39,384 nt of DNA. Source: Flavobacteriaceae bacterium. Lineage in GTDB: Bacteria > Bacteroidota > Bacteroidia > Flavobacteriales > Flavobacteriaceae. Location of the stretch: assembly GCA_002691685.1 (NCBI GenBank), contig NZIQ01000032.1:1-39384 (forward strand), read 5' to 3'. The translations under genes were made by a program, and so were the position numbers. Of the stretch, positions 22,222 to 39,384 are shown in pieces; positions within the stretch are counted from its first letter, which is position 1; each line of letters begins with the position of its first letter. The notes beneath the pieces are model-generated. The model searched no databases. It was not told where the DNA came from and was given only the letters and a program-made list of their open reading frames with translations.

Positions 22222-22968
22222 CTATTTCTTAAGTGAAGCAAAAAGGTATTCTCTATTCAATCGCGCTATATTTTCAAGTGAAATTCCTTTTGGACATTCA
22301 AGCTCGCACGCTCCAGTGTTGGTGCAGTTTCCAAAACCTTCTAGGTCCATCTGCTTTACCATATTTAGTACTCTTGTGGTAGCTTCCACCTGTCCCTGCG
22401 GTAGAAGAGCGTACTGCGAAACCTTGGCTGAAGTAAAGAGCATTGCTGATGCGTTTTTACAGGCAGCAACACAGGCACCACATCCAATACAAGTGGCCGC
22501 ATTGAAGGAAAGGTCTGCATGTTCTTTTTCAATTGGAATGGCATTAGCATCAACTGGATTCCCAGAAGTATTTACTGAAATATATCCACCTACTTGTTGA
22601 ATGCGATCAAAAGCACTTCGATCTACAATAAGGTCTTTAATAACAGGAAACGCGGCAGCTCTAAAAGGCTCCACCGTAATAGTGTCTCCGTCACTAAAGC
22701 TTCTCATGTGTAACTGGCAGGCCGTTGTTCTGTGCTGAGGTCCGTGTGGACGACCATTAATGGTCATAGAACAGGTTCCGCAAATTCCTTCGCGGCAATC
22801 GTGATCAAATTCAATGGGCTCTTCACCTTTTAAAATAAGCGATTCATTTAAGATGTCAATCATTTCTAAAAATGACATGTCTGCCTCAACGTGATCTAGG
22901 TCGTAAGAAACCATTGCTCCTTTAGAAGAGGCATCTTTTTGTCTCCAAACGTTCAATTTTATTTTCAT
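22222..22968 (-). CDS. sdhB: Succinate dehydrogenase/fumarate reductase iron-sulfur subunit
   Basis: The 248-residue subunit passes electrons from SdhA to the membrane heme subunit. The N-terminal ferredoxin-like domain has the 2Fe-2S ligands in [19 protein letters not shown] and a later Cys in TTACQLH. The C-terminal domain has [14 protein letters not shown] and [16 protein letters not shown] for the 4Fe-4S and 3Fe-4S clusters. The open frame reaches a TTG two codons earlier, but the ATG at 22968 is the natural start. It follows sdhA by eight bases and is the last gene of the operon. Confidence 0.96.
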
Positions 22969-22976
22969 AATCAACT

Positions 22977-24980
22977 CTATTTGTATGATCGTGTTTTCAA
23001 TTCGATATTTTCATACACCAGGTCTTCTCGATGTAAAACAGCCTCAGAAGGGGTGCCTTTGTATTCCCAAGCAGCAGTGTACTTGTATTGCTCATCATCT
23101 CTTAAGGCTTCTCCTTCTTCGGTTTGATATTCTTCTCTAAAGTGCCCACCACAAGATTCGTTACGCTCTAAGGCGTCTTTGGCAAAGAGCTCTCCTAATT
23201 CCAAGAAATCAGCAACTTTTCCAGCTTTTTCCAACTCTTGATTTTTAGAATCAAGCATTCCTGGCACTTTAACGTTTTCCCAGAAATCTGCACGGAGTGC
23301 GGCTATTTCTGAAATAGCCTCTCTAAGCTCTTTTTCATTACGGGACATGCCGCATTTGTTCCACATGATTTTGCCCAATTTCTTATGGTAATAATCTACA
23401 GAGTACTTTCCTGAGCCAGACATTAGTTTTTCTAATTTTTCTCTTACAGCCTCTTCGGCTTGCACGAAATCTTCTGTTTCTGTTGAAATAGCCCCTGTTC
23501 GTATGTCGTCACTTAGGTAATCCCCTATAGTATAAGGGAGCACAAAATAACCGTCTGCAAGACCTTGCATTAGTGCTGAAGCTCCGAGACGATTTGCTCC
23601 ATGATCACTAAAATTGGCTTCACCTGCCGCATAACAACCAGGAATACTCGTCATAAGGTTGTAATCAACCCATAATCCGCCCATGGCATAGTGCACGGCT
23701 GGATAGATTTTCATAGGGGTTTTATAAGGATTTTCGTCGGCGATTTTCTCATACATCTGAAACAGGTTTCCGTATTTTGCCTCTACAATGACTTCTCCTA
23801 AGGCTCTTACCTCAGCATCACTCGCATCTTTTTGACCAGAAGTATTTGCCTTTTCTCGTCCGTAACGCATGATGGCTGCATCAAAATCCAAATACACAGC
23901 TTCGCCAGTTTTGTTAACCCCGTAACCTGCATCACAGCGTTCTTTGGCAGCTCTTGAGGCTACATCTCTCGGCACTAGATTTCCGAATGCAGGATAACGA
24001 CGCTCTAAATAGTAATCTCTGTCTTCTTCTGCGATTTGTGTAGGTTTTAATTTGCCTTCACGAATGGCTTGAGCGTCTTCTAATTTTTTTGGAACCCAAA
24101 TTCTTCCATCGTTTCGAAGTGATTCTGACATCAGTGTTAGTTTAGACTGATGATCTCCAGAAACTGGTATACAAGTAGGGTGAATTTGAGTGTAACAAGG
24201 GTTCGCAAAATAAGCTCCCTTTTTATGTGCTCTCCAAGCTGCGGTTACATTGGCTCCCATACAGTAAGTGGAAAGGTAGAAAAGATTACCATATCCGCCA
24301 GTAGCTAAAACTACCGCATGAGCAGCATGGCGCTCTAATTTTCCACTGACTAAATCTCTTGCAATAATACCGCGGGCCTTACCATCTACTAAAACGAGAT
24401 CGAGCATTTCATGACGTGTAAATGATTGAATCTTTCCTCTTTGGATTTGGCGATTCATCGCAGAATAAGCACCTAATAATAACTGCTGACCTGTTTGACC
24501 TTTTGCATAAAAGGTTCTTGAAACCTGGACTCCTCCAAAAGAGCGGTTATCTAGAAGCCCTCCGTATTCTCTTGCAAAAGGAACACCTTGAGCAACACAT
24601 TGGTCGATAATATTTGTTGATACTTGGGCAAGTCTATATACGTTTGCCTCTCGAGAACGATAGTCACCTCCTTTGATGGTGTCATAAAATAAACGGTAAA
24701 CACTATCTCCATCTCCTTGATAGTTTTTAGCCGCATTTACTCCTCCTTGAGCAGCAATAGAATGTGCCCTTCGCGGGGAGTCTTGATAGCAAAACGTCTT
24801 GACGTTATAACCGAGTTCAGCCAATGTGGCAGAAGCAGAGGCGCCCGCTAGGCCAGTTCCAACGACGATGATATCAATATTTCTTTTGTTGGCAGGGTTG
24901 ACCAAGTTGATACGATCTTTATGTTTATTCCATTTTTCGGCTAAAGGTCCTGCTGGAATTTTTGAATCTAATATGGCCAT
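22977..24980 (-). CDS. sdhA: Succinate dehydrogenase/fumarate reductase flavoprotein subunit
   Basis: The 667-residue catalytic subunit oxidises succinate to fumarate using covalently bound FAD. The dinucleotide-binding motif is [19 protein letters not shown] (about 36-54), and the flavin-linking His lies in [21 protein letters not shown] and [19 protein letters not shown] are further active-site and FAD blocks. The large size and the partner b-type cytochrome put it in the SdhCAB/Frd class B group found in Bacteroidota and Epsilonproteobacteria. It is two bases from sdhC. Confidence 0.97.
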
Positions 24981-24982
24981 GT

Positions 24983-25639
24983 TTAAAATTGATTAAGATG
25001 GTGAAACAAGGCGATAAAAGCGAAACCTACTGGAATCCCTATCGAAAATAAGGTCGCGAATGATTTCAAAGCCATACCGAGTTTATTGTCTAATCCAAGT
25101 GTTTGTATTGAAGAGGCGAATCCGTGCAACAAGTGCAGCGCCAACAAAAAGAAGGCAAAGACATAAATAGCAGTGCGTTCAATAGTTGCGAACTTTAACA
25201 CTGTGTAGGCGTAGTAGCGCTCTTCATCTACAGGTAATTGCTCTACGTACTTATAACTCATTTCGTGCACCCAAAAGTCGTACATGTGAAGACCGATAAA
25301 AGCAAGAATTACTGCTCCAGAAAGAATCATATTTCTAGAAATCCAACTGCTGTTTTTTGATTTTCCGCTTACTTTATAATTTACAGTACCGCGCGCTTTG
25401 TTGTTTTGAATTTCGAGGACAAAGCCCATCACAAAGTGTACGATAACACCAGCGATTAAAACGGGCTGAAGTATAAATTGCACCAAACCATTGTAGCCCA
25501 TAAAATGAGACCATTGATTATAGATTTCCTCTGAAAAAACAGAGGCGAGGTTAATCGCGAAGTGCAGACTTAAAAAGGAGATTAAAAATAATCCCGACAA
25601 AGCCATAACTATCTTTCTTAACAAAGAAGACTTAAACAT
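24983..25639 (-). CDS. sdhC: Succinate dehydrogenase cytochrome b subunit (class B, five helices)
   Basis: From the ATG at 25639 the protein has 218 residues; four upstream codons from a TTG are open but unlikely to be used. It begins [19 protein letters not shown] and shows five hydrophobic helices. Histidines suited to binding two b hemes occur in [24 protein letters not shown] and [10 protein letters not shown] single large anchor with no SdhD is typical of the Bacteroidota enzyme, which reduces menaquinone. It is the first gene of sdhCAB and has a good promoter just upstream. Confidence 0.95.
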
Positions 25640-25671
25640 AATTGTTATCAATTAATTGATTAAAACCATAA

Positions 25672-25924: not shown

Positions 25925-28777
25925 TTACTCTATCGTGATTTCAGTGGATGAAGTTACTCCGTCTGGTGAAACAATACTGTAAGTGTAAGTTCCTTTAGAA
26001 AGAAAATACATTCCATTTGATGCTTTTGCTGGTTTCTTTCCCTTGGCAGTTTCATAGTTTTGTATTCCTTTTTCTGATAGACTTAGGTCGTACTTCAAAT
26101 AGTGTAAGCCTGAACTTAAATCAAGAGCGTCTTGCATTAATTCTACCCCGTCTTCATCTTTTAGGTTAACCACATAGGTGGATGCATTTTTGAGATAAAC
26201 AGGAACATCGATACTTGGCACATATGCCTCAGACCATGTCGACCAGCTCATTCCCCATCTTCTGTTAGATTTGACGGAATTTACGTTAAAGAAATGAACA
26301 TTCTTATCCATTATGCTTGGACTTAGTCCTTCTATATGCTCAATATTGAGTCTGTAGATACTCCTTCCGTGTGTTCCAACTAATAAATCTTTAGCCTCGG
26401 GCTGAATGACCAGGTCGTGAACCGCAACCTCAGGAATACCTTGCTGTAAACTTTCCCATGAGGACCCGCGATCAACAGACACATAAACTCCGTTGTCTGT
26501 GCCAATAAATAAGACCGACTCGTTGTGTGGATCTTCGAGTATCACGTTTGCGGGAGACATCGGAATTTCCTGTGCAATTTGTTTCCAAGTCCTTCCATAA
26601 TCTTCACTTAAATAAGCGTAAACATTAAAGTCATCCCATCGATAACCATTTAAGGTGAGATATACTCTTGAAGGGCTGTGTTTTGAAGCAGCCACTCGGC
26701 TCACCCAAAGGTTTTGAGGAAGGTTTTTTGAGAGCACACTCCAGTTCTTTCCTCCATCACGTGTAAGCTGAACAAGGCCATCATCACTACCTGTATATAT
26801 TGTTCCAAAATCAAAAACAGATTCGCTGATCGTGGTAAGTGTTCCAAAGGCAACATTACCTTTTCTTCCTCCCGCAGTTAAATCTTCAGATAAATTCGTC
26901 CAGTGGTCTCCTTGATCCATAGATCTGTGCAGTATATTACTACCCATATAGAGCACGTCTTGATTGTGACTTGAGAGTAAAATAGGAGTTTGCCAGTTGA
27001 AGCGATAGGGAGACTCTCCCAAACTGTGTTTCGGCGTGATGAACTTTCTTGAATTATCCGCCAAATTCAAGCGATAGTAGTTTCCAAATTGAAGGCCAGT
27101 ATATACGATGTTAGCGTTTCTATTGTCGATTTGAACCTGCATTCCATCTCCTCCCATGATGCGTTTCCAAGGGTTTTGCCCCTCACTTAACCACCTGCGA
27201 TTTACTGGACTATTATGCGGTGCTTTCCACACCCCGTTATCCTGAAGTCCGCCGTATATTTGATAAGGCTTTTGATGGTCTACATTGATGGCATAGAATT
27301 GACCAACAGCAGGGGTGTTTGCAATCATCCAATCCTCACCATCGTTATAGGTAATATTAACACCACCATCATTTCCATTGATAATATGTCCAGGTTTATT
27401 GGGGTTGACCCAAATGGCATGATGATCTGAATGTACATTTTCTTTTCCAATGGCAGAGAAGGTTTTACCTCCATCATCACTTTTTATAATCGGTACACCC
27501 GCTAAATAAATCTTATCAGTATTTGAAGGATCAACGGTTACTTGAGCGAAATAATAGCCATAACTAAAAAACAGGCCATCCAAATAATCTTTATGTGTTT
27601 TCGAAAAAGTCGTTCCGCCGTCAGTGGACTTATACAATTCAGCTCCGACTACGGGCGTGTCAAAGAGCATGGAGTTTGCATCTTCAAGAAAAAGAGCAAT
27701 GTCCTTAGGGCTTGCTTTACTTGCTTTAACCATTTGCTTGACACTTGCAGCTTTATAGGTTGCAGGAAATCTATTTTGGCGCAAAAAGATATTGAGTTTT
27801 TTGTCATCAAGAGCTAGGAAATCAGCATTTGACATGCTTTTAAAGTCATCCTTTTTCAATGAAGATCTCGTCGTATTTTGGCCCACGGCTTTTGGTCTTC
27901 TAAATTGAGAATCATGAACTGCAAAAACAGTATTTGCATCAGTAACGGCTAATCCAATTCTACCAACTCCAGTTCCTGTAGGAAACCCGCTTTCTTCATT
28001 TGTTATTAAGTCCCAGGTATTACCAGCATCTGTGCTCTTGTAAATTCCAGATCCTGAGCCACTTCCTTCAAAATTCCATGCTTTTCTGTCTTTTTGCCAG
28101 CTCGCCGCATACATGATATTAAAATCTTGAGGCGCATGAGCTAGGTCAATGATTCCAGTTGAGTCGTTCACGTATAAAGTTTGTATCCAATCTGCACCGC
28201 CGTTAGTAGAACTAAACACTCCTCGATTTGGATTATTGGTGTAAAGATGGCCCACAGAACCAACAACAATATGCTCAGCATTTTCTGGATTAATGACAAT
28301 TCGCCCAATATGATGGGAGTCTTCTAAACCTAAGAAAGACCAATTTTCACCATTATCAGTTGATTTATAAAGTCCTGTTCCAGCATACGATGATCGTGAA
28401 GAGTTGTTTTCTCCGGTTCCTACATAGACTGTATTGCTTTCCCAGTGCACCGCAATGTCCCCAACATTTTGTGTAGGGGCATTATCAAATATGGGGTCAA
28501 AGGATATGCCATTATCTGTGGTGTGCCATACACCTGCGGTAGCGTAGGCCACATAGAATTCTGTAGGGTCATTTTCATTTACGGCTAGATCTACAACACG
28601 CCCACTCATTATACTTGGGCCAATATTTTCAAAGGATAAGGTCTTAAACTTTGAGGTATTTTTATATTCTGTTTTCGATTGGATGGCACTTAGGAGATCT
28701 TGGCCTGATGTAGGGTTTTGTTGCGCCACTATAATACCTATACAGGACAAGGCGAAACAAGTTATCAGTTTTTTCAT
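25925..28777 (-). CDS. Secreted BNR/VPS10 (sortilin-like) beta-propeller protein
   Basis: The 950-residue protein has a signal peptide (1-18, ending in IIVAQ). It then has many Asp-box/BNR repeats of the form STDNGENW, STNGGADW, STDAGNTW, STDGGTTF, SDDGGKTF, TRDGGKNW, SEDYGRTW and SVDRGSSW, each ending a propeller blade. The VPS10/sialidase-like architecture suggests one or two large propellers, followed by a C-terminal beta domain (from about 860). Such proteins are annotated as exo-alpha-sialidase- or glycosyl-hydrolase-like, but no catalytic residues can be assigned and a binding or scaffold role is as likely. No type IX sorting domain is obvious at the C-terminus. An insertion of about 90 residues around 290-380 (KKDDFKSMSNADFLALDD) has no BNR repeats. 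It diverges from the PUL regulator. Confidence 0.82.
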   Translation of the reverse strand: MKKLITCFALSCIGIIVAQQNPTSGQDLLSAIQSKTEYKNTSKFKTLSFENIGPSIMSGRVVDLAVNENDPTEFYVAYATAGVWHTTDNGISFDPIFDNAPTQNVGDIAVHWESNTVYVGTGENNSSRSSYAGTGLYKSTDNGENWSFLGLEDSHHIGRIVINPENAEHIVVGSVGHLYTNNPNRGVFSSTNGGADWIQTLYVNDSTGIIDLAHAPQDFNIMYAASWQKDRKAWNFEGSGSGSGIYKSTDAGNTWDLITNEESGFPTGTGVGRIGLAVTDANTVFAVHDSQFRRPKAVGQNTTRSSLKKDDFKSMSNADFLALDDKKLNIFLRQNRFPATYKAASVKQMVKASKASPKDIALFLEDANSMLFDTPVVGAELYKSTDGGTTFSKTHKDYLDGLFFSYGYYFAQVTVDPSNTDKIYLAGVPIIKSDDGGKTFSAIGKENVHSDHHAIWVNPNKPGHIINGNDGGVNITYNDGEDWMIANTPAVGQFYAINVDHQKPYQIYGGLQDNGVWKAPHNSPVNRRWLSEGQNPWKRIMGGDGMQVQIDNRNANIVYTGLQFGNYYRLNLADNSRKFITPKHSLGESPYRFNWQTPILLSSHNQDVLYMGSNILHRSMDQGDHWTNLSEDLTAGGRKGNVAFGTLTTISESVFDFGTIYTGSDDGLVQLTRDGGKNWSVLSKNLPQNLWVSRVAASKHSPSRVYLTLNGYRWDDFNVYAYLSEDYGRTWKQIAQEIPMSPANVILEDPHNESVLFIGTDNGVYVSVDRGSSWESLQQGIPEVAVHDLVIQPEAKDLLVGTHGRSIYRLNIEHIEGLSPSIMDKNVHFFNVNSVKSNRRWGMSWSTWSEAYVPSIDVPVYLKNASTYVVNLKDEDGVELMQDALDLSSGLHYLKYDLSLSEKGIQNYETAKGKKPAKASNGMYFLSKGTYTYSIVSPDGVTSSTEITIE

Positions 28778-28814: not shown

Positions 28815-28842
28815 CAAATTTATCTCCAAAGTAAATGCTCAA
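28815..28842 (-). promoter_or_regulatory. Promoter of the BNR/VPS10-like gene
   Basis: On the - strand TTG (28840-28842) is followed after 17 bases by TAAATTTG (28815-28822), an exact Bacteroidota promoter match. The -33 element lies inside the first codons of the divergent regulator gene, so the two start regions are interlocked in a 57-base gap. Confidence 0.6.
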
Positions 28843-31633
28843 GATGTATAAATCTTATGTCAATAGTAAGGCTGTAGTCTATTCCTTAGTTCTCATAGTA
28901 TTGTTTGTGATTTCTCTTCAAGGGCAAACAGCAGTTCCAATTCAAAATTACAGCCCCACATCATTGCCGCTCAATCCACAAAATTGGTCTATAGTTCAGG
29001 GAGGGAATAATAAAATCTATACAGCTAGTGATAACAAGCTCATTGAGTTTGACGGTGTCAATTGGAATGAATACAACTCATCTAATGGTTCGCAAATTAG
29101 ATCATTATTGGCAACGGAGGACTACATCTACTCCGGAGCTTACATGGATTTTGGCTTTTGGAAAGTGAACCAGCAGGGAATTTTAGAATACACTTCAATA
29201 GTGCAAAAGAATGACATCAATCTAAAAGCTGACGAACAGTTTTGGGATGTCAAATCATTTTACGGTTCCATTATATTTAGGTCGTTAGATCGCGTGTATA
29301 TCTATAATCCTAGTAAATCTTCAGTTGATTGGATAGAGGCTAGCTTCGACAGAGGTTTACTGTTTTTGATCGATTCTAATATTGTTTTTCAAACAGATGA
29401 AGGACTGTATTATATACGAGATGGTAAAAAACAATTGTACACTGAGGTTCCCTCAGAAGTAGGGGTTGTTCTTGGACTTTTTGACTTTGAAGATCAAATA
29501 TTTGCCATTAATCAGTCTGCTGAAGTGTTCGAACTAAGAGCGAGTCAATGGATACCAAACCTTTCTTTGCTTGGCCCTATAATGAGTAACGCTTTATTCA
29601 ATGTCAATTATGACAGTGATAAGGGCATTTTGAATTTAGGCGCTGTAGATGAAGGCTTAATACGTGTTGATTTAAACACGAAGTCTGTGTCTAACTTCAA
29701 TAGAGCTAACGGGCTGCAAGACAATACCGTTTTAAATTCCTTTAGTGACAATCAGTCTGGCCTGTGGTTAGCCCTAAATTACGGTGTGAGTCGAATAGAT
29801 TTTGGGTCTAAAATATTTGAGTATCAAGATTCATCTTCACAGTTAGGAGCTGTATATAAAGCCATTGACTTTGAGAACTACCGTTATTTGGCGACCAATA
29901 GTGGACTGTATGCAAAGCCTTTAAACAGCCCTCAAGACTTTGAGTTTATCAAGGGTAGTCAAGGGCAAGTATGGAATCTTCAAAACATTAATGATGAGCT
30001 TTTTATGGGCCATGATCGAGGAGGGTTTATCATCAAGGGTAAGAATATTGAGCGAATCACGGAGGTAGTAGGAACATGGGAGTTTAAGCTTATGCCTAAT
30101 AATGATTCGACTATGATACAAGCCCATTATAACGGTTTATCTGTGTTGAAAAAAGAAAATAAGCGTTGGAAGTTTTCTAATACCATTGAAGGTTTTGATA
30201 TTTCTACCCGATTTTTTGAATGGATTAGTCCTAATGAAATTCTAATTAATCATGAGTTTCAAGGCTTAAAACGGTTAGTTCTCGATGAAAAATACGATAG
30301 GGTTACCAATATTATTGACCTTGGCCGATTGGGATATTCCACCTGCATTGTAAAATGGAATAACGAGATCAAATACATCACTGAAAATGCGGTGTACCGC
30401 TACATTACTGACACCAATCGTTTGTTTGTTGATGAAGACTTACAGCCTATCTTATTTGAGGAAGAAAACATAAGAAATAGTGTGGTTTGGGTTGACGATG
30501 AACAAAATCTAAGTTATTTTGACCAGCGAGGTCTGCGGCTAATTTCGAATGGACTTCTTGAAAATGAAATTAAATACGAAGCTTTTTCTTTGACCAACAC
30601 TATTGTGAATAACCTCAATTTAAAAGGCTTTGAAAATGCTTCTAGACTTTCTGACGGCACTTACCTTATAGGGCTTAATCGTGGTTTTGCCGTTTTATCA
30701 GGAAATAATGATTTGAATCAAAATCAATTTAGAGACTTGAACTATGTGCAATCCATTAAGCACAATTTGGCAGATAAAGATAGCCTTTTGAATTTAAGTC
30801 AAATTCCAGAGTTCATTCAAGATAATGCAACATTTTCATTGGTTTTAGCGCACAAGAAATACGATAAATACGCGAATAAAGATTTTAGGTATAGAATAAT
30901 AGGCAAAGATTCAACCCAGTGGATGAAGTTAAAGTCAGAGGAGCTCAGAATTCAAAATTTAGAAACTGGAAGCTATTCCCTACAAATTCAGATGGTAAAT
31001 CAAGAAGATAATACATTGAGCGAATTAGAATTCGACATTGTACCTAGTTGGATTGACACTGCAGGCGCACGGATTCTAATACTAGCCATCGTAATCCTGC
31101 TGATTGCTGGATCACAATTCATCTACAGATGGTATTACAAACGAGTTCAGAAAGATTTGCTTGACAAAAAGCAGCAACAAATAACCGCTCTTAAAAATGA
31201 AAAGCTGAATCAAGAAATAAAATCTAAAGGAAAAGAGTTGGCCAATTCAACTTTGAGTCTAGTTAAAAAGAATGAATTACTAAATCAAATTAAGCAGGCG
31301 CTTAAAAATGTGAGCACAAAAACAGACGTGGCCAATGTTTTGCGATTGATCGACGCTAATATTGAAAAAGAAGACGACTGGGAATTATTGAAATCTGCCT
31401 TCAATAATGTCGATAAAGATTTTATAAAAGCATTGCACGAAAAACACGGCAGTCTAACACACAACGACCTACGTCTGTGCACCTATTTGCGCTTAAATTT
31501 AAGCTCAAAAGAAATCGCACAGCTCTTAAATATCTCTACAAAAAGCGTAGAAGTTAAACGTTATAGATTGCGGAAAAAATTGGATTTGTCCCATGAACAG
31601 AGCTTAACGGACTATATAATAAGTCTTAAATAG
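28835..31633 (+). CDS. Transmembrane propeller/Y_Y_Y sensor with LuxR-type DNA-binding domain (SusR-like)
   Basis: The 932-residue protein is a one-piece membrane regulator. A signal anchor (about 12-30) exports a two-component-regulator-type beta-propeller (about 40-640), and a Y_Y_Y domain follows (about 665-740; RYRIIGKDSTQWMKL, LETGSYSLQIQMV). One transmembrane helix (745-765) leads to a cytoplasmic coiled coil (KKQQQITALKNEKLNQEI) and a LuxR/GerE-like helix-turn-helix at the C-terminus (about 868-932; LSSKEIAQLLNISTKSVEVK). No histidine kinase or receiver domain is present, so it is not a hybrid two-component sensor. It sits directly upstream of susC and probably activates the PUL when its propeller binds an oligosaccharide. 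ATG at 28844 is an alternative start. Confidence 0.88.
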   Translation: MLKMYKSYVNSKAVVYSLVLIVLFVISLQGQTAVPIQNYSPTSLPLNPQNWSIVQGGNNKIYTASDNKLIEFDGVNWNEYNSSNGSQIRSLLATEDYIYSGAYMDFGFWKVNQQGILEYTSIVQKNDINLKADEQFWDVKSFYGSIIFRSLDRVYIYNPSKSSVDWIEASFDRGLLFLIDSNIVFQTDEGLYYIRDGKKQLYTEVPSEVGVVLGLFDFEDQIFAINQSAEVFELRASQWIPNLSLLGPIMSNALFNVNYDSDKGILNLGAVDEGLIRVDLNTKSVSNFNRANGLQDNTVLNSFSDNQSGLWLALNYGVSRIDFGSKIFEYQDSSSQLGAVYKAIDFENYRYLATNSGLYAKPLNSPQDFEFIKGSQGQVWNLQNINDELFMGHDRGGFIIKGKNIERITEVVGTWEFKLMPNNDSTMIQAHYNGLSVLKKENKRWKFSNTIEGFDISTRFFEWISPNEILINHEFQGLKRLVLDEKYDRVTNIIDLGRLGYSTCIVKWNNEIKYITENAVYRYITDTNRLFVDEDLQPILFEEENIRNSVVWVDDEQNLSYFDQRGLRLISNGLLENEIKYEAFSLTNTIVNNLNLKGFENASRLSDGTYLIGLNRGFAVLSGNNDLNQNQFRDLNYVQSIKHNLADKDSLLNLSQIPEFIQDNATFSLVLAHKKYDKYANKDFRYRIIGKDSTQWMKLKSEELRIQNLETGSYSLQIQMVNQEDNTLSELEFDIVPSWIDTAGARILILAIVILLIAGSQFIYRWYYKRVQKDLLDKKQQQITALKNEKLNQEIKSKGKELANSTLSLVKKNELLNQIKQALKNVSTKTDVANVLRLIDANIEKEDDWELLKSAFNNVDKDFIKALHEKHGSLTHNDLRLCTYLRLNLSSKEIAQLLNISTKSVEVKRYRLRKKLDLSHEQSLTDYIISLK

Positions 31634-31837: not shown

Positions 31838-34800
31838 ATGAAGAATGTTTTTCTGGTTTTAAGTTTGTTTTGTTTAAGCTTATTGCAAGCGCAAAACTTT
31901 ACAGTCACTGGTGTTGTAAAAGACGCCAATACAAATGAGCCGTTACCTGGAGTTACTGTCGTTGTAAAAGGAACTCAACGTGGAGTGTCTGCAGATTTTG
32001 ATGGACTGTTTTCCATTGACGAGCTAAAAGACACTGACATTTTAATATTTGCCTATTTAGGGTACCGCGATCAGGAATTAAAAGTTTACGGCAATTTAGA
32101 AGTGGAAATTGAGCTTCAAGAAGATGTCGCCGCACTAGATGAGGTTGTTGTTGTCGGATACGGCGTACAGCGAAAAAAAGAATTGACAGGTGCTGTAGCA
32201 GTCATAGGAGAAGCTCAAATTGAAGAATTAAACCCAACCCGATTAGAACAAGCCATTCAAGGACAAGTTGCTGGGGTAGATATTACTTCTCAATCGGGAT
32301 CACCAGGAAGTGGATTAAATATTCGAATTAGAGGAGTCACAACTAATGGAGACAATAGACCTTTGATTTTGGTTGATGGAAATGTTATAGAGGATTTAAG
32401 TGTTTTGAACCCTTCTGATATAATGAGCATGAACATCCTTAAAGATGCAACTGCAGGTATCTACGGAGTAAGAGCAGCAAATGGGGTCATCTTAATTACG
32501 ACGAAAACAGGTCGTAAAAACACCAAACTCAAGATATCTCTAGACTCTTACGCGGGTATTCAAAATACGACACGCCAAATTGGAGTACTTAACGGATTCG
32601 AATATGCATACCTACTAAACGAAGCCTATATAGCGGATGGACAGTTACCTCCTTATACGGACTTTTCGACAATTGGATCAGGTACAGATTGGCAAGATGA
32701 GGTATTCGAATTTGCCCCAACACATAACCATGCCTTAACTGCTTCTGGAGGAACGAAAAAGTCTGCGTATTCATTTGGTTTGTCTTACTTAGACCAGCAA
32801 GGTATTGTAGGGCTCGACAAATCAAGCTTTCAAAGAATCACAGCGAGAATAAATTACCAATACGACATTTTAGAGAATTTAAAGTTTACAGCTAATACCA
32901 TTTATACAGAATCTGACAGAAGAGGACTTCCGGAGAGCGGACTGGGGTCGGTATTATTTAATGCAGTAAATAATTCACCCCTACTTCCTGTCTTTGATCA
33001 AACCGGGACATATACCTTAAGCGAAGGCTTGGGTAATGAAGTAGTAAATCCTTTAGCACAAATTGATAACACCTTCAATTTGACAGAGGTCAAGAGAATC
33101 AGTGGAAAAACAGGCTTGCAATACAAGCTAGGAGATCATATAACGGCAGTAGCTAACGCACAATTCAATTATGCTGAAGTTTACGGAAACAACTTTTCGC
33201 CATTAGTATTCTACGGTTCAGGAAAAGTATTTAACAATACATCAAGAATATCACTCACCCAGAATAAAGATATTTTTAGAGATTACACAATAGATGCCTT
33301 CGTCAATTACAAGAAGCTTTTCAGTAATCATGAAGTACAGTTTACATTAGGTACTAGTATTTTTGCAACAAGAGGTCAATTCTCAGGTGGAAACCAAGGA
33401 TTCTTTAATGCTACCGATATCACATTCGATAATGCAGATTTAGCCAATGCTGATGAATTGAGAAACTCCTTAGTGGAAAGTGGTTTAAGCGGAAGATTTG
33501 ATGAGCGACTGCTGTCGTACTTCGCAAGACTGCAATACAACTACAAAGAGCGATTATTATTTTCTGGTGTAATCAGAAGAGACGGTTCGACAAAATTTGG
33601 GCCTAACAATCGCTTTGGATATTTCCCATCTGTTTCTTTGGGATACATCTTAAAAAGTGACAGTTCATTTAAGTCGACAGACCTTGTTTCCTTTGCAAAA
33701 TTGAGATGGAGTTATGGAATTTTAGGAAACGACAGAATAGCGGGTAACGCATTTAGAGCTATTTTGAATGGAGAAGGAGCTTATGTTTTAGGAAATACGC
33801 TCCAATTTGGTCAGGCTATTGGGGTGCTTCCAAACCCAGAAATTCAATGGGAAGAGCAAGAAACCATGAATGTAGGAGCTGACTTTAAATTCTTTAACAA
33901 CAGCCTTGATTTTACTTTTGATTATTTCATCAAACAAACAAGCGGTTTATTATTACAGCCGCCAGTATCGGGAATTTTAGGAGCTACAGGACCTGGAGCT
34001 CAACCACCTGTTGTAAATGCGGGAATCATTGAGAATAGCGGATTTGAATTTGTTTTAGGGTATCAGTTTTTTGACAACGAGGATTTTAGTTTATCGGCCA
34101 ATGCAAATGCAACTATTTTGACCAATGATGTTATCTCGGTAAATAATGGAGTAGGCTTTTTACAAGGAGGATCTTTTGGAGTTGGATTAGAACCACCTTC
34201 TCGAATGGAAGCAGGATTTCCAATCGGATATTTCTTTGGTTTGAAAACGGATGGAATATTCCAAAACACTCAAGAATTAGAGGCTCATGCTGATCAACTC
34301 AACGCATCAGTTGGAGACCTGCGTTATGTAGATTTAAATGAAGATGGCATAATCGATAGTAACGATAGAACTTATATTGGAGACCCAATCCCAGAATTTA
34401 CAGCTGGATTCAATCTCAACATGACATTCAAACAATTTGATCTAAGCGCCTATGCGTTTGCCTCTGTTGGGAACGAAATGGTTAGAAACTACGAGCGAAA
34501 CCAACCTTTAGTTAACAAGTCTGTTTATGCGATTAACCGATGGACTGGAGAAGGCAGTACGAGCACTGACCCAAGGCTTACAGTTGGCGCCTCTTCGAAC
34601 GCCTTATTCTCGGATTATTTTGTCGAAGACGCTTCATTTGTGCGTTTGCAAAATGCGCAAATTGGGTATTCATTTAAACCAGAAACTCTTGAAAAATTAG
34701 GTTTGACAAAACTTAGACTATACCTCTCAGGAAACAATTTATTCACATTTACAAAGTATAGAGGATTCGATCCATCGGCAAGCTCAGGCGAGCCTATCGG

Positions 34801-34870
34801 AGGAGGAATTGATTATGGATTTTATCCAGTTCCTCGAACTGTATTACTTGGATTAAACCTAAAAATGTAA
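31838..34870 (+). CDS. SusC/RagA-family TonB-dependent outer-membrane transporter
   Basis: The 1010-residue protein has a signal peptide (1-19) and an N-terminal CarboxypepD_reg-like domain (about 22-98; VTGVVKDANTNEPLPGVTVV). The TonB box region follows (DEVVVVGYGVQRKKELTGAV, near 104-123). The plug contains IRIRGVTT, PLILVDG, and LKDATAGIYGVRAANGVILI. A 22-stranded barrel carries the SusC marker RRDGSTKFGPNNRFGYFPS and a C-terminus ending in LLGLNLKM. It imports oligosaccharides using the proton gradient via TonB-ExbBD and forms a lidded pair with the SusD made five bases downstream. Confidence 0.95.
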   Translation: MKNVFLVLSLFCLSLLQAQNFTVTGVVKDANTNEPLPGVTVVVKGTQRGVSADFDGLFSIDELKDTDILIFAYLGYRDQELKVYGNLEVEIELQEDVAALDEVVVVGYGVQRKKELTGAVAVIGEAQIEELNPTRLEQAIQGQVAGVDITSQSGSPGSGLNIRIRGVTTNGDNRPLILVDGNVIEDLSVLNPSDIMSMNILKDATAGIYGVRAANGVILITTKTGRKNTKLKISLDSYAGIQNTTRQIGVLNGFEYAYLLNEAYIADGQLPPYTDFSTIGSGTDWQDEVFEFAPTHNHALTASGGTKKSAYSFGLSYLDQQGIVGLDKSSFQRITARINYQYDILENLKFTANTIYTESDRRGLPESGLGSVLFNAVNNSPLLPVFDQTGTYTLSEGLGNEVVNPLAQIDNTFNLTEVKRISGKTGLQYKLGDHITAVANAQFNYAEVYGNNFSPLVFYGSGKVFNNTSRISLTQNKDIFRDYTIDAFVNYKKLFSNHEVQFTLGTSIFATRGQFSGGNQGFFNATDITFDNADLANADELRNSLVESGLSGRFDERLLSYFARLQYNYKERLLFSGVIRRDGSTKFGPNNRFGYFPSVSLGYILKSDSSFKSTDLVSFAKLRWSYGILGNDRIAGNAFRAILNGEGAYVLGNTLQFGQAIGVLPNPEIQWEEQETMNVGADFKFFNNSLDFTFDYFIKQTSGLLLQPPVSGILGATGPGAQPPVVNAGIIENSGFEFVLGYQFFDNEDFSLSANANATILTNDVISVNNGVGFLQGGSFGVGLEPPSRMEAGFPIGYFFGLKTDGIFQNTQELEAHADQLNASVGDLRYVDLNEDGIIDSNDRTYIGDPIPEFTAGFNLNMTFKQFDLSAYAFASVGNEMVRNYERNQPLVNKSVYAINRWTGEGSTSTDPRLTVGASSNALFSDYFVEDASFVRLQNAQIGYSFKPETLEKLGLTKLRLYLSGNNLFTFTKYRGFDPSASSGEPIGGGIDYGFYPVPRTVLLGLNLKM

Positions 34871-34875
34871 GGGCA

Positions 34876-36324
34876 ATGAAAAAATATTTAGCACTCGTTT
34901 TATTTTCGGTTCTTTTAGCATGTTCAGACGAATTTGTCGACGTAGATTCTTTTGACCAAGATTCTGAAAGTTTTTTCAATACACCAGAAGATTATCAGTC
35001 AGCGTTGATTGCCGCATATGATTTATTACAGGCAACATATATCAATGTTATGCTTGGAGAAATCGCCTCTAACAACACCTTAGCCGGTGGGGAATCTGCA
35101 ACAGATGTTCCTGGAATTCAAGAAATCGACGACATGATTCACACACCAGTGAACCAGCAACTAAGAGATATGTGGTCTTGGATGTACGCAGGAATCAATC
35201 GAGCCAATTTTATTTTAGAATTTAAAGACAATATTGAATTTGCGGAAAAAGAAGGGATTTTGGCAGAAGCCCGTTTTTTAAGAGCATACTATTATTTCGA
35301 ATTGATTAAATGGTTTGGAGATGTTCCATTTGTATTGGATCAGCGCATTCAATTTGGAGATCAATACATCATAGATCGCACGCCAAAGGCAGAAATCTAT
35401 GCGCAGCTTGAAGTTGATCTTGCTCAAGGGGCACAGGTCTTACCAGATGTTACTGCCGAAGCAGGAAGAGTGACCAAAGGAGCCGCCTTAGCCTTATTAG
35501 GAAAAATACATTTGTATCAAGGGGAGTTCGAAGCTGCTGCAACTGCACTTGAGGAGGTAATCAATTCTGGAGCCTACGATTTAGTTGGTGATTACGGCAC
35601 CCTTTTCGAAAATGATAACGAGAATACTGTAGAGTCTGTTTTTGAAGTGCAGTACACTGATATAGAAGGAGCAGGTTTTGGATGTTTGCAGTGTTCAGAA
35701 GGGAATATTGCTGTAGGATTTAATGGAATTCGAAACTATTCGGGTCCTGTTTTCGAATCAGGATTTAGTTTCAACGTACCAACAGCAGAAGCCTATCAAG
35801 CATTTGAACCTCAAGATTTGAGAAGAGATGTAGCCATTCTCGATATCGAGGCTTGGGCCAATGCTAACACTGACGTTTCTTACGATATTGGCTTTGAGCA
35901 TACAGGATACTACAATAGAAAATATTTAGCGCGTCAAGGAGATTTAAATACCCCAGATGCGAACTTGACCAATCCAAACAACTACCGATCTATTCGCTTT
36001 GCAGATGTTTTACTCATGGCTGCAGAAGCATTGAATAGAGGACAAATCAGCGATACAAGAGCACAAGTTTATTTGAATAGAGTTCGCGGTAGAGCGGGAC
36101 TTACTTCGGCAGCAGAAACAGGTCAAGCCTTAACAGAGGTCATTTATCAAGAACGCAGGTTAGAGTTGATGGGTGAGGGACATCACTTCTTTGATTTGGT
36201 GAGAACCCAAAGAGCAGCCAGCGCAATAACAGGATTTGTAAGTGGAAAACACGAGTTGTTTCCCATTCCAAATATAGAAATTGAACTAGCGGGAAATCGC
36301 TGGTCTCAAAACCCAGGATATTAA
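34876..36324 (+). CDS. SusD/RagB-family glycan-binding outer-membrane lipoprotein
   Basis: The 482-residue lipoprotein has its lipid-acceptor Cys at 16 (LLACSDEF). Acidic residues follow, as in Bacteroidota surface-export signals. Helical TPR-like SusD blocks are clear: MWSWMYAGINRANFIL, LAEARFLRAYYYFELIKWFGDVP, AEIYAQLEVDL, ALLGKIHLYQGEFEAA, RFADVLLMAAEALNRG and IYQERRLELMGEGHHFFDLVR. It caps the SusC barrel and captures glycan. The segment EIASNNTLAGGESATDV resembles what I recall of SusD proteins in beta-1,3-glucan loci; this is from memory and not a proof of substrate. Confidence 0.94.
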   Translation: MKKYLALVLFSVLLACSDEFVDVDSFDQDSESFFNTPEDYQSALIAAYDLLQATYINVMLGEIASNNTLAGGESATDVPGIQEIDDMIHTPVNQQLRDMWSWMYAGINRANFILEFKDNIEFAEKEGILAEARFLRAYYYFELIKWFGDVPFVLDQRIQFGDQYIIDRTPKAEIYAQLEVDLAQGAQVLPDVTAEAGRVTKGAALALLGKIHLYQGEFEAAATALEEVINSGAYDLVGDYGTLFENDNENTVESVFEVQYTDIEGAGFGCLQCSEGNIAVGFNGIRNYSGPVFESGFSFNVPTAEAYQAFEPQDLRRDVAILDIEAWANANTDVSYDIGFEHTGYYNRKYLARQGDLNTPDANLTNPNNYRSIRFADVLLMAAEALNRGQISDTRAQVYLNRVRGRAGLTSAAETGQALTEVIYQERRLELMGEGHHFFDLVRTQRAASAITGFVSGKHELFPIPNIEIELAGNRWSQNPGY

Positions 36325-36353: not shown

Positions 36354-39300
36354 ATGAATACAACTAAGAAATTATTAGCTTTTATGGCCCTAATGGCCAT
36401 AGTTTTAGTGAGTTGTGAAAAAGACGAGGAGCCAGAACCAGAGGTTATGCCTCCAAGTAATGTTGCTGCTACAGTCGTAGTTTCGACAGACAACTCAGGT
36501 GACGTAACGGTCACTCCAACTGCAGATGGTGCAAGTAGATTCGACCTTTATTGGGGAGATGCAACAACTGCTCCTACGACAGTGAACCCAGGTTCAAGCG
36601 CTACACATACTTACGAAGAAGGTGATTATACCTTAAGAGTGGTAGCTGTTGGATCAACAGGTTTAACCGCAGAAATCACAAAACCAGTTAACGTTACTTT
36701 TGCAGCACCTGCTAACCTAGCAGTAAATGCCGCTATTTCTGAAACCAACTTGTTTGAAGTTACGGTTACACCAACCGCTGACAATGCGTCTATGTTTGAT
36801 GTAGACTTTGGCGTTGAAGGTGCAGACGTACAAAGTATTTTGGCAAGTGAATCAGCGACTTACGAGTATGCTGAAGCTGGCGATTACACCATTACAGTTA
36901 CAGCTAAAGGAGCTGGAGCTGCCACTTCTGAAGCGACAGAGACCGTTTCAATCACTGGACCAACAGGTTCAATAGAATTACCTATTGATTTCGAAGATGC
37001 TACTGTTGCTTATGAGTTCTTTGATTTTGAAGGAAACTTTGCCTCTGTTGTAGACAACCCAGACACTAATGGTAACGAAAGTGCTAAAGTAGGGTCGATT
37101 TTAAAGACTTCAGGTTCAGCCGTATTCGCTGGATCAATAATCACTCTAGGAAGCGCTATTGACTTTACGCAAGGTAACACGTTTCAAATGAAGGCTTGGT
37201 CTCCAAAAGCTGGAGGTACAGTAAAAATGAAATTAGAAGACAGCAGCGACCCACCAGTTGGAATTGAAGTTGATGCAACGACTGAAAACGCAAGTGCTTG
37301 GGAAACCTTATCATTCAATTTTGCTGCTCAAATCAATCCGGAAATTTCTTATAACAAAGTCATTATATTCTTTGACTTTGGAAACCCAGGAGATGATACA
37401 ACTTACTATTTCGATGACATCGAATTGGTTGAAGGCGCAAGTAAAGAAAGACCACAATTACCACTAGGTTTTGAAAACAGTGATACTGAGGACTACACTT
37501 GGGGTGTATTTGGAGGTGTTGACCCTGCCGAGGTTATTGCCAATCCTGACACCAATGGTAATACATCAGCAAATGTTACTGCTATTACTAAAAATGCCGG
37601 AGCAGAAGTTTGGGCAGGTGCCTCATTAAATTTAAATGGTGCAATTGATTGGTCGGCTGGAACAACGGTTAAAATAGATGTATGGTCACCAAGAGTAGGA
37701 ACACCAATTTTATTGAAACTTGAAGATTCAAGTACGAATACAGGAGGTGGAGCTTCGACTTTTGCAGAAGTAAGTGTATCGTCTACTCAAGCTGGAATGT
37801 GGGAGACACTATATTTTGACATGACAGGTGCCAATGGTGGATTTGCTACCACAACTACCTATGATGCAGTTGTAGTCTTCCCAGACTTTGGAACAAACGG
37901 TGGAGGAGAAACTTTCTACGTTGATAATATTGAAGTTACTGCTGACAACGGCGGTAACGGCGGAAATGATGCGCCAACAATGGCTGCACCAACTCCAACC
38001 CAAGACGCTGCAGATGTTATCGCTATTTATAGTGATACCTACACGCCAATCACAGTGACTGAGTTCCCAACTGAATGGTCTTCGTCAGGATATGAAGAGG
38101 TTCAAATCGCTGGAAACAATACGGTTAAATATGCCGGTCTTGATTTCACGGGAATTGTTACTGATTATAATAATCCAACAGATTTAACAGGCATGACGCA
38201 CGTTCACTTTGACTATTGGACTGCTGATGGAGAAGAAATCGGATTAAAACTAGTAAACACAGTTATAAGTCAAGAGGACATAGAAACTAGAGTTACTACA
38301 AAGAATGAGTGGGTAAGTGTTGACATTGCATTAGATGATTTTGCATTTGATCGCTCTCAAGTGACTCAAATTCTTTTTGACAACATGCCAGCAGGTAATA
38401 TCACTTTATACATGGATAACCTTTATTTCTATGCTGAAGCCACGGGAGGAGATGCACCATCTACTGCAGCTCCAACACCAGCGCGTGACGCTGCAGATGT
38501 TATCTCAATCTACAGTGATGCCTACACCCCTACCACAGTTACTGAATTACCAACTGAATGGTCAGGTTCTGGATTTGAAGCAATTCAAATCGAAGGCAAC
38601 AACACAATCAAATATGTTGATTTAGATTTCACAGGTATCGTAACTGATTATGGTAACCCAACAGACTTATCATCAATGACACACGTTCACTTTGATTATT
38701 GGTCACCTGACGGAGAAACGATAGGATTAAAATTAGTAAACACTACTACAGATCCAGTTCAAGAAGACATTGAAACTACAGGAGTAGCTCAAGGCCAATG
38801 GGTAGGTGTTGACATTGCATTAGATGATTTTGCATTTGATCGTTCTGCTGTAACTCAAATATTGTTTGACAATATGGTAGCAGGAACAATTACATTATAT
38901 ATGGACAATTTATATTTTTATGTTGACGATAATGGAGGAGGTGGAAACACTGCACCAACTACTGCAGCTCCAACACCAACTAAAGACGCCGCTAATGTTA
39001 TTTCAATCTACAGTGATGCCTATACCCCTACGACAGTTAGTGAATTACCAACTGAATGGTCAGGTTCTGGATTTGAAGAAATTCAACTCGAAGGAAACAA
39101 CACAATCAAATATTTTGATTTAGATTTCACAGGTATAGTTACTGATTACGGTAACCCAACAGACTTGTCAGGAATGACTCACGTTCATTTTGATTATTGG
39201 TCAGCTGATGGTGAAACGATAGGATTAAAATTAGTAAACACTACTACAGATCCAGTTCAAGAAGACATTGAAACTACAGGAGTAGCTCAAGGTCAATGGG

Positions 39301-39384
39301 TAGGTGTTGACATTGCATTAGATGATTTTGCATTTGATCGTTCTGCTGTAACTCAAATATTGTTTGACAATATGGTAGCAGGAA
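36354..39384 (+). CDS. Multidomain surface glycan-binding lipoprotein, 3' end outside the window
   Basis: The frame is open from ATG at 36354 to the window end (1010 codons, no stop). The lipoprotein Cys is at 21, followed by EKDEE, a good surface-export signal. Domains in order are two PKD-like domains (33-116, 117-202), two related CBM-like beta-sandwich domains (204-360, 367-530; each with NPDTNGN, a WSP motif and LKLEDSS or similar), and three copies of a ~160-residue module starting at 540, 701 and 867 (APTPxxDAADVIxIYSD, GNNTxKY, THVHFDYW, FDNM, YMDNLYFY). Gly/Asn-rich linkers join them. The third copy is cut by the window. By position it is the SusE/SGBP-type third component of the PUL. 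Laminarin is a plausible ligand, because similar C-terminal modules occur on flavobacterial laminarinases (recalled, not searched). Confidence 0.88.
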   Translation, partial: MNTTKKLLAFMALMAIVLVSCEKDEEPEPEVMPPSNVAATVVVSTDNSGDVTVTPTADGASRFDLYWGDATTAPTTVNPGSSATHTYEEGDYTLRVVAVGSTGLTAEITKPVNVTFAAPANLAVNAAISETNLFEVTVTPTADNASMFDVDFGVEGADVQSILASESATYEYAEAGDYTITVTAKGAGAATSEATETVSITGPTGSIELPIDFEDATVAYEFFDFEGNFASVVDNPDTNGNESAKVGSILKTSGSAVFAGSIITLGSAIDFTQGNTFQMKAWSPKAGGTVKMKLEDSSDPPVGIEVDATTENASAWETLSFNFAAQINPEISYNKVIIFFDFGNPGDDTTYYFDDIELVEGASKERPQLPLGFENSDTEDYTWGVFGGVDPAEVIANPDTNGNTSANVTAITKNAGAEVWAGASLNLNGAIDWSAGTTVKIDVWSPRVGTPILLKLEDSSTNTGGGASTFAEVSVSSTQAGMWETLYFDMTGANGGFATTTTYDAVVVFPDFGTNGGGETFYVDNIEVTADNGGNGGNDAPTMAAPTPTQDAADVIAIYSDTYTPITVTEFPTEWSSSGYEEVQIAGNNTVKYAGLDFTGIVTDYNNPTDLTGMTHVHFDYWTADGEEIGLKLVNTVISQEDIETRVTTKNEWVSVDIALDDFAFDRSQVTQILFDNMPAGNITLYMDNLYFYAEATGGDAPSTAAPTPARDAADVISIYSDAYTPTTVTELPTEWSGSGFEAIQIEGNNTIKYVDLDFTGIVTDYGNPTDLSSMTHVHFDYWSPDGETIGLKLVNTTTDPVQEDIETTGVAQGQWVGVDIALDDFAFDRSAVTQILFDNMVAGTITLYMDNLYFYVDDNGGGGNTAPTTAAPTPTKDAANVISIYSDAYTPTTVSELPTEWSGSGFEEIQLEGNNTIKYFDLDFTGIVTDYGNPTDLSGMTHVHFDYWSADGETIGLKLVNTTTDPVQEDIETTGVAQGQWVGVDIALDDFAFDRSAVTQILFDNMVAG
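37971..38453 (+). repeat. Repeat module copy 1 of the surface lipoprotein
   Basis: Codons 540-700, 483 bases. It begins APTMAAPTPTQDAADV and ends at YFYAEATGGD. It is the most diverged of the three copies but shares a stretch of about 37 identical bases with the others around 38319-38355 (encoding VDIALDDFAFDR). Confidence 0.85.
38454..38951 (+). repeat. Repeat module copy 2 of the surface lipoprotein
   Basis: Codons 701-866, 498 bases. It begins APSTAAPTPARDAADV and ends at a DDNGGGGNT linker. By hand count it differs from copy 3 at about 28 of the first 261 bases but at only one of the next 172. Confidence 0.88.
38952..39384 (+). repeat. Repeat module copy 3 of the surface lipoprotein (cut by the window end)
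   Basis: Codons 867 onward, beginning APTTAAPTPTKDAANV. The 433 visible bases align with copy 2 without gaps at an offset of 498. From 39213 to the end, 171 of 172 bases are identical to 38715-38886. Further copies may lie beyond the window. Confidence 0.88.

Follow-up and report, generated by a model that had tools for sequence, protein, structure and literature searches.

Probable gene conversion between adjacent modules of a predicted glycan-binding array in a Flavobacteriaceae bacterium

Interlocus gene conversion and the concerted evolution of repeats within a genome are known processes, as the available parts of two published accounts describe (PMC3924818, PMC12046097), and in the available part of a third source PKD-domain proteins are named among the laminarin PUL proteins of Formosa, marine Flavobacteriia (PMC6246565). 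Judged by title and the start of the abstract, papers on gene conversion in carbohydrate-binding repeats of Bacteroidetes did not concern such repeats, and those on laminarin binding, X584, CBM105 and new CBM families did not concern the module described below; both may be published. The window, that is, the whole stretch of DNA analysed (39384 bases, its end being the end of the contig), carries three tandem copies of this module within a single open reading frame. The locus is laid out as follows.

28835-31633, forward strand: putative locus regulator, with a LuxR-type GerE match and a weak Y_Y_Y match under its cut-off
31838-34870, forward strand: susC-like TonB-dependent receptor gene (Pfam CarbopepD_reg_2 and Plug)
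34876-36324, forward strand: susD-like gene directly 5' of the array reading frame (Pfam SusD_RagB, E 1.1e-26)
36354-39383, forward strand: array protein reading frame, 1010 aa, running off the contig, with a lipoprotein-like N-terminus, a weak PKD_4 match and three tandem modules
37968-38450, forward strand: module copy 1 (c1), 161 aa, its DNA about 25% different from c2 and c3
38451-38948, forward strand: module copy 2 (c2) with linker, 166 aa, the presumed recipient
38949-39384, forward strand: module copy 3 (c3), incomplete, cut by the contig end, the presumed donor

The Pfam matches in the window place the array next to susC and susD. Its product begins with a lipobox and an acidic stretch, judged by eye from the translation, and its PKD_4 match (E 6.8e-5) lies under the curated cut-off. 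The array is present in three of the 11 genomes of the genus, namely the window's own and those of two sister species, each represented by one genome and referred to here as G001, the nearer sister, and G003. In both sisters the order of reading frames, judged by size and position, is alike, and the array protein has exactly three modules and ends in ...DNLYFYNE followed by a stop, so that the window's array protein is probably short of about 14 residues. The gene 3' of the array encodes a GH16 protein in both sisters, and Maribacter arenosus (L023), Gelidibacter pelagius (L035) and Flavobacterium frigoris (L038) likewise have GH16 as their next large downstream gene. Psychroflexus curvus (L028) has in that place a gene without a Pfam match, with GH3 beyond it, and in Hyunsoonleella aestuarii (L024) the single downstream gene checked gave no Pfam match.

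The module comprises about 160 aa, and an AlphaFold2 model built with 50 sequences (pLDDT 95.5, pTM 0.90) is a beta-sandwich. The model matches the CBM11, CBM29 and CBM30 folds with Z of 13 to 14, among them CBM11 (1v0a; Z 13.7, 3.0 A over 139) and CBM30 (2c24; Z 13.1, 2.7 A over 139), and it matches the laminarin-binding X584 (PDB 8qx6) with Z 12.2 and 2.9 A over 133, identity in these alignments being just 11-20%. A complex I assembly factor chain (7zkq) scores as high as the carbohydrate-binding modules (Z 14.0), and the ligand therefore cannot be read from the fold by itself. No carbohydrate-binding relative by sequence emerged when solved structures were searched with a profile of the module, sequence searches of solved structures with the array protein and the module returned chance-like matches only, and c2 of the window matched no Pfam family at E 0.1. 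When 50 modules were scanned against Pfam, one matched CBM_11 (E 0.0034) and four matched SGBP_B_XBD (best E 0.00094). On fold, then, the modules are predicted to be of a carbohydrate-binding beta-sandwich type, and the array probably encodes a surface lipoprotein that binds glycan and has three beta-sandwich CBMs in tandem. The locus is predicted to serve beta-1,3-glucan (laminarin-type) utilisation, the glycan specificity being presumptive; given the fold of the modules and the GH16-type neighbours, a surface protein that holds a laminarin-type beta-glucan is the likely function.

Two stretches within the array, one in each of the last two copies, are central to the comparison.

38715-38886, forward strand: near-identical tract in c2, differing from c3 at 1 of 172 positions, the presumed conversion tract
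39213-39384, forward strand: matching tract in c3, its last 91 bases an exact repeat of 38796-38886

Offset by 498, copies 2 and 3 give a gap-free alignment. Across 38454-38714 they differ at 28 of 261 positions and across 38715-38886 at a single position of 172 (38795 C against 39293 T), which on recount are exactly the figures that the first-pass annotation had reached by hand. It had further held that such a step is unlike uniform divergence, and this is borne out both by the contrast of the two counts (Fisher p = 6e-6) and by a change-point scan with codon-wise shuffling, which places the step at module column 264 (30/264 to the left, 1/171 to the right) and whose observed value was reached by none of 1000 shuffles. 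Its remark that many of the differences are silent also stands, 15 of the 25 differing codons listed being synonymous. By NG86, dS between the copies falls from 0.309 in the 5' part to 0.026 in the 3' part, and dN from 0.075 to 0.

A step of this kind might be expected with no recombination at all if the 3' half of the module simply evolved slowly, and the c1 orthologs of the window and G001 do diverge a little less in the 3' part (11/165) than in the 5' part (24/264). However, this account is very improbable, and as a full explanation it is refuted, for three reasons. First, c1, which behaves like an ordinary ortholog between species, changes in its 3' part at a rate (6.7%) far above 1/172, so that the 3' half is not specially constrained. 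Second, c2 and c3 of G001 differ at 10 of 171 positions in the very stretch concerned. Third, the loss is seen at synonymous sites, with a dS of 0.026 against 0.31-0.36 for c1 orthologs.

Comparison with the nearer sister identified a sandwich within c2. Differences between window c2 and G001 c2 number 14/264 in the 5' part, 11/171 over the tract and 2/63 beyond it in the tail, and within the tract window c2 differs from both the window's c3 and the c3 of G001 at only 1/171. At the sites that separate the two copies in G001, window c2 is of copy-2 type at 28 of the 34 that lie up to column 263, of copy-3 type at ten of ten consecutive sites in columns 287-422, and of copy-2 type again at 10 of 11 from column 437 on, the right edge being judged from G001 c3 because the tail of the window's c3 is missing. 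The diagnostic copy-3-type sites run from 38738 to 38873, and the nearest outer copy-2-type sites are 38714 and 38888. A triplet test with window c2 as child and G001 c2 and c3 as parents gave p = 5e-5, the lowest value that 20,000 shuffles allow, and p = 0.0021 with sites collapsed to codons; with the window's own c3 as donor the signal was weaker (p = 0.0016; 0.0025 with 2000 shuffles; 0.020 codon-collapsed). This alternation of c2, c3 and c2 sequence is consistent with a conversion tract that lies inside the module, measures about 136-173 nt and passed from c3 into c2. Part of the contrast between the window and G001 could lie in G001 c2, which carries some copy-1-like bases at columns 365-422; conversion from c1 into c2 in G001 was considered, and no significant tract was detected (p = 0.16 and 0.69). 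In G003, c2 and c3 are homogenised across most of the module (11/264, then 1/171) and not in the tail (10/42).

Given these observations, it is probable, with good confidence, that this array, predicted to bind a laminarin-type glycan, underwent a conversion of about 136-173 nt from c3 into c2 after the window's species had split from G001. Recent conversion in the 3' half, as the first-pass annotation had proposed, is thus the best reading, and it now has a polarity, with c3 as donor, c2 as recipient and c2 sequence on both sides. The event would have involved homologous recombination between adjacent modules, presumably RecA-dependent, in which the c3 stretch was copied over the matching stretch of c2, in a direction suggested by the sister comparison, with c2 sequence left on both flanks; a single base would have changed since. 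The effect on the protein would have been nearly silent: compared with c2 of the sister, one residue of the tract is changed, from Gln to Ala (SQV to SAV).

The same annotation had raised unequal crossover, and either this or a recent duplication of one module could in principle have produced the identity. Relatives do carry tandem arrays of 2 or of 3 modules, one of four Gelidibacter arrays having two and the other three having three. This is quite improbable, given that the 5' halves of c2 and c3 are old (dS 0.31) and that three copies in the same order already exist in both sister species; the presence of c2 sequence on both sides of the tract further disfavours a single crossover.

Trees agree with conversion from c3 into c2 to a limited extent. 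In the tract tree, window c2 groups with c3 of the window and G001 (bootstrap 91), and in the tree of the 5' part bootstraps within copies 2 and 3 are low (33-67). Four fixed trees were compared by AU test on both regions. On the tract, the best tree (0.962) joins window c2 to the c3 of the window and G001, and c2 to c3 of G003; rejection is clear for the tree that groups copies by position (3.5e-7) and marginal for the one that pairs window c2 with G001 c2 (0.0385). On the 5' part, the tree that pairs window c2 with G001 c2 fits best (0.829), the best tree of the tract is not rejected (0.185), and the remaining two are (1.1e-4, 8.3e-6). The simplest conversion tree, written before testing, in which c2 and c3 of the window stand beside the other c3 copies and the other c2 copies stand together, is rejected for the tract (2.4e-5) and for the 5' part (8e-6), since G003 c2 joins G003 c3 and the c3 of the window joins that of G001. 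With the value of 0.185 and the low bootstraps of the 5' part, the conflict between trees is on its own modest.

The position of the tract at the very end of the contig raises the possibility of an assembly artefact, in which the repeat was collapsed or wrongly routed during short-read assembly and either the c2 tract or the end of c3 is false. Among exact repeats of 30 nt or more, none in the window is longer than the 91-nt run at 38796-38886 and 39294-39384, and the last base of this run is also the last of the contig; in G001, c2 and c3 diverge two bases past the point that matches the contig end. The locus is taken up again on another contig of the window's genome (C36), close to where the GH16 gene ends, with about 2 kb missing between, and the first 250 bases of that contig differ at 2 positions from G001 and at 3 from G003. 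No close copy of the module was found on the other contigs of the same genome, in which one relative of 41% occurs on contig C32. The end of c3 holds one further feature.

39174-39384, forward strand: run of 211 bases identical to G001 c3, the next longest in the aligned region being 86

N and gap columns were counted as breaks in this run, and a run of 210 was reached by 1 of 20,000 codon shuffles of the array gene. Despite the 211 identical bases, the 5' part of c3 has a dS of 0.43 against the same module of the sister. G001 and G003 share long identical runs too (163 and 150 nt), and their run within the gene, 155, was reached by 1 of 5000 shuffles.

That the last bases of the contig equal the c3 of another species, together with its end at the longest repeat and the break to the next contig, speaks for an artefact. 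Nevertheless, this is unlikely for several reasons: first, the two tracts do not stem from double use of a single graph edge, since the C at 38795 is private to c2, with T in c3 and in all seven remaining module copies across the three species, which makes simple re-use of one assembled repeat unlikely. Second, the c3 tract agrees with the independent assembly of another species. Third, a false c2 tract would need two wrong joins, and c2 keeps a proper copy-2 tail. Finally, similar homogenised modules occur in the isolate genomes of Maribacter arenosus and Flavivirga amylovorans. The artefact that the first-pass annotation had feared is therefore weakened by the private base and the independent match, and it is not dismissed, since the end of the contig coincides exactly with that of its longest exact repeat. 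The 211-base identity itself reflects either exchange between species or an assembly break, perhaps a false join, where sequences of related organisms coincide. A two-step course, in which the 3' part of c3 was exchanged between two congeneric species and then copied by conversion into c2, is suggested tentatively and is itself rather doubtful; were it true, the array would serve as a gateway for imported module sequence, which would then spread inside the protein.

Arrays were also sought in 48 sources (the window, L018-L020 and L023-L066; L021 and L022 were omitted, being the places already covered by L018 and L019), which yielded 64 reading frames, and 15 arrays in four sets were used for triplet tests. 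Within proteins, the change-point scan covered 32 module pairs with an identity of 70% or more, lower pairs having been dropped. Nine of these, the window's pair included, lie at the permutation floor (p = 0.001), and in the other eight the step falls at most 70 columns from one or other end of the module, near the linker; only in the window is it mid-module. The pair of modules 2 and 3 in G001 has no significant step (p = 0.19). An internal step is seen in modules 1 and 2 of Flavivirga amylovorans (L041; 28/165 then 19/315, p = 0.006), and in Maribacter arenosus c2 and c3 differ at 13/413 and then at 20/70 positions, so that two isolate genomes have comparable homogenised modules. In Maribacter arenosus and Hyunsoonleella aestuarii, copies within the protein are closer to one another than to the same copy in the other species of the set.

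The triplet tests reached p < 0.001 in 26 of 184 cases. In the window's genus this was 1 of 36, in G003, the window's best value there being 0.0025. The Maribacter set gave 22 of 72, with distant stand-ins for parents, triplets that are non-independent, and conversion indistinguishable from separate duplication. The Gelidibacter set gave 3 of 36, two of which were rejected as conversion and read as linker effects, being module-end runs with c1 as donor. None of 40 reached it in the Psychroflexus set, whose two copies per protein differ by 35 to 38%. Taken together, the change-point and triplet results indicate that homogenisation of modules is recurrent but not universal. When the tract DNA was searched against 299 genomes of the family, 11 matched, the window's own included, and the best local match outside its own genome was 82% over 94 bases, or 75% over about 150; G001 and G003 were not among the matches of this search.

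In summary, the modules of a predicted sugar-binding protein appear not to be independent in evolution: in more than one of the related bacteria, neighbours swap short pieces, with the linkers remaining distinct. This bears on how module phylogenies are read, and it carries the warning that in such arrays metagenome contigs break and may contain errors. No new kind of mechanism is opened: the mechanism is well known, and the case is a clean example of it that is cut off by a contig end. As in known gene conversion, a short, non-reciprocal tract would have passed between paralogous copies with unconverted flanks, and over the tract adjacent copies are closer than orthologs; there is no difference in principle, the present case lying between domains inside one reading frame of one MAG. 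The modules share the beta-sandwich fold of CBM11, CBM29, CBM30 and X584 (8qx6) at an identity of only 11-20%. With the laminarin PULs of Formosa, as far as the available part of that source describes them, the locus has in common a SusC/SusD pair with GH16-type enzymes, and the weak PKD match of the array fits the PKD proteins named there; the module array is not described in that part (PMC6246565).

The final 211 bases of the window's contig (39174-39384) agree base for base with the orthologous stretch of G001, one of the two sister species that carry the same three-module array, and this is by far the longest identical run in the aligned region. Such identity at the contig end reflects either an exchange between species or an effect of assembly. 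The locus carries on in a second contig of the same genome, C36, whose start lies approximately 2 kb past the window's end when measured in sister coordinates and whose first 250 bases, the intergenic stretch included, show only 2 and 3 differences from the two sister species. The genes upstream of the locus, this continuation and a relative of the module located elsewhere in the genome are as follows:

22222-25651, minus strand (opposite to the locus): succinate dehydrogenase/fumarate reductase-type genes, upstream
25925-28777, minus strand (opposite to the locus): 950-aa protein with Sortilin-Vps10 matches, upstream
C36 (L091, 1-250): contig carrying on the locus, with its start close to where the GH16 gene ends
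C32, 24246-24758 (L020, 4229-4750): single-copy module, 41% identical, within a 713-aa open frame

A similar counterpart of the single-copy module is present in both sister species, G001 and G003.

Further afield, the arrays of Psychroflexus lacisalsi and P. gondwanensis (L030, L031), each with two modules, show 0% difference (rounded) between the two named species. The module family of the array also occurs, in two copies each, at three loci (L048, L050 and L053) in MAGs that carry the labels Betaproteobacteria, Burkholderiales and beta proteobacterium, which is attributable either to horizontal spread or to mis-binning.
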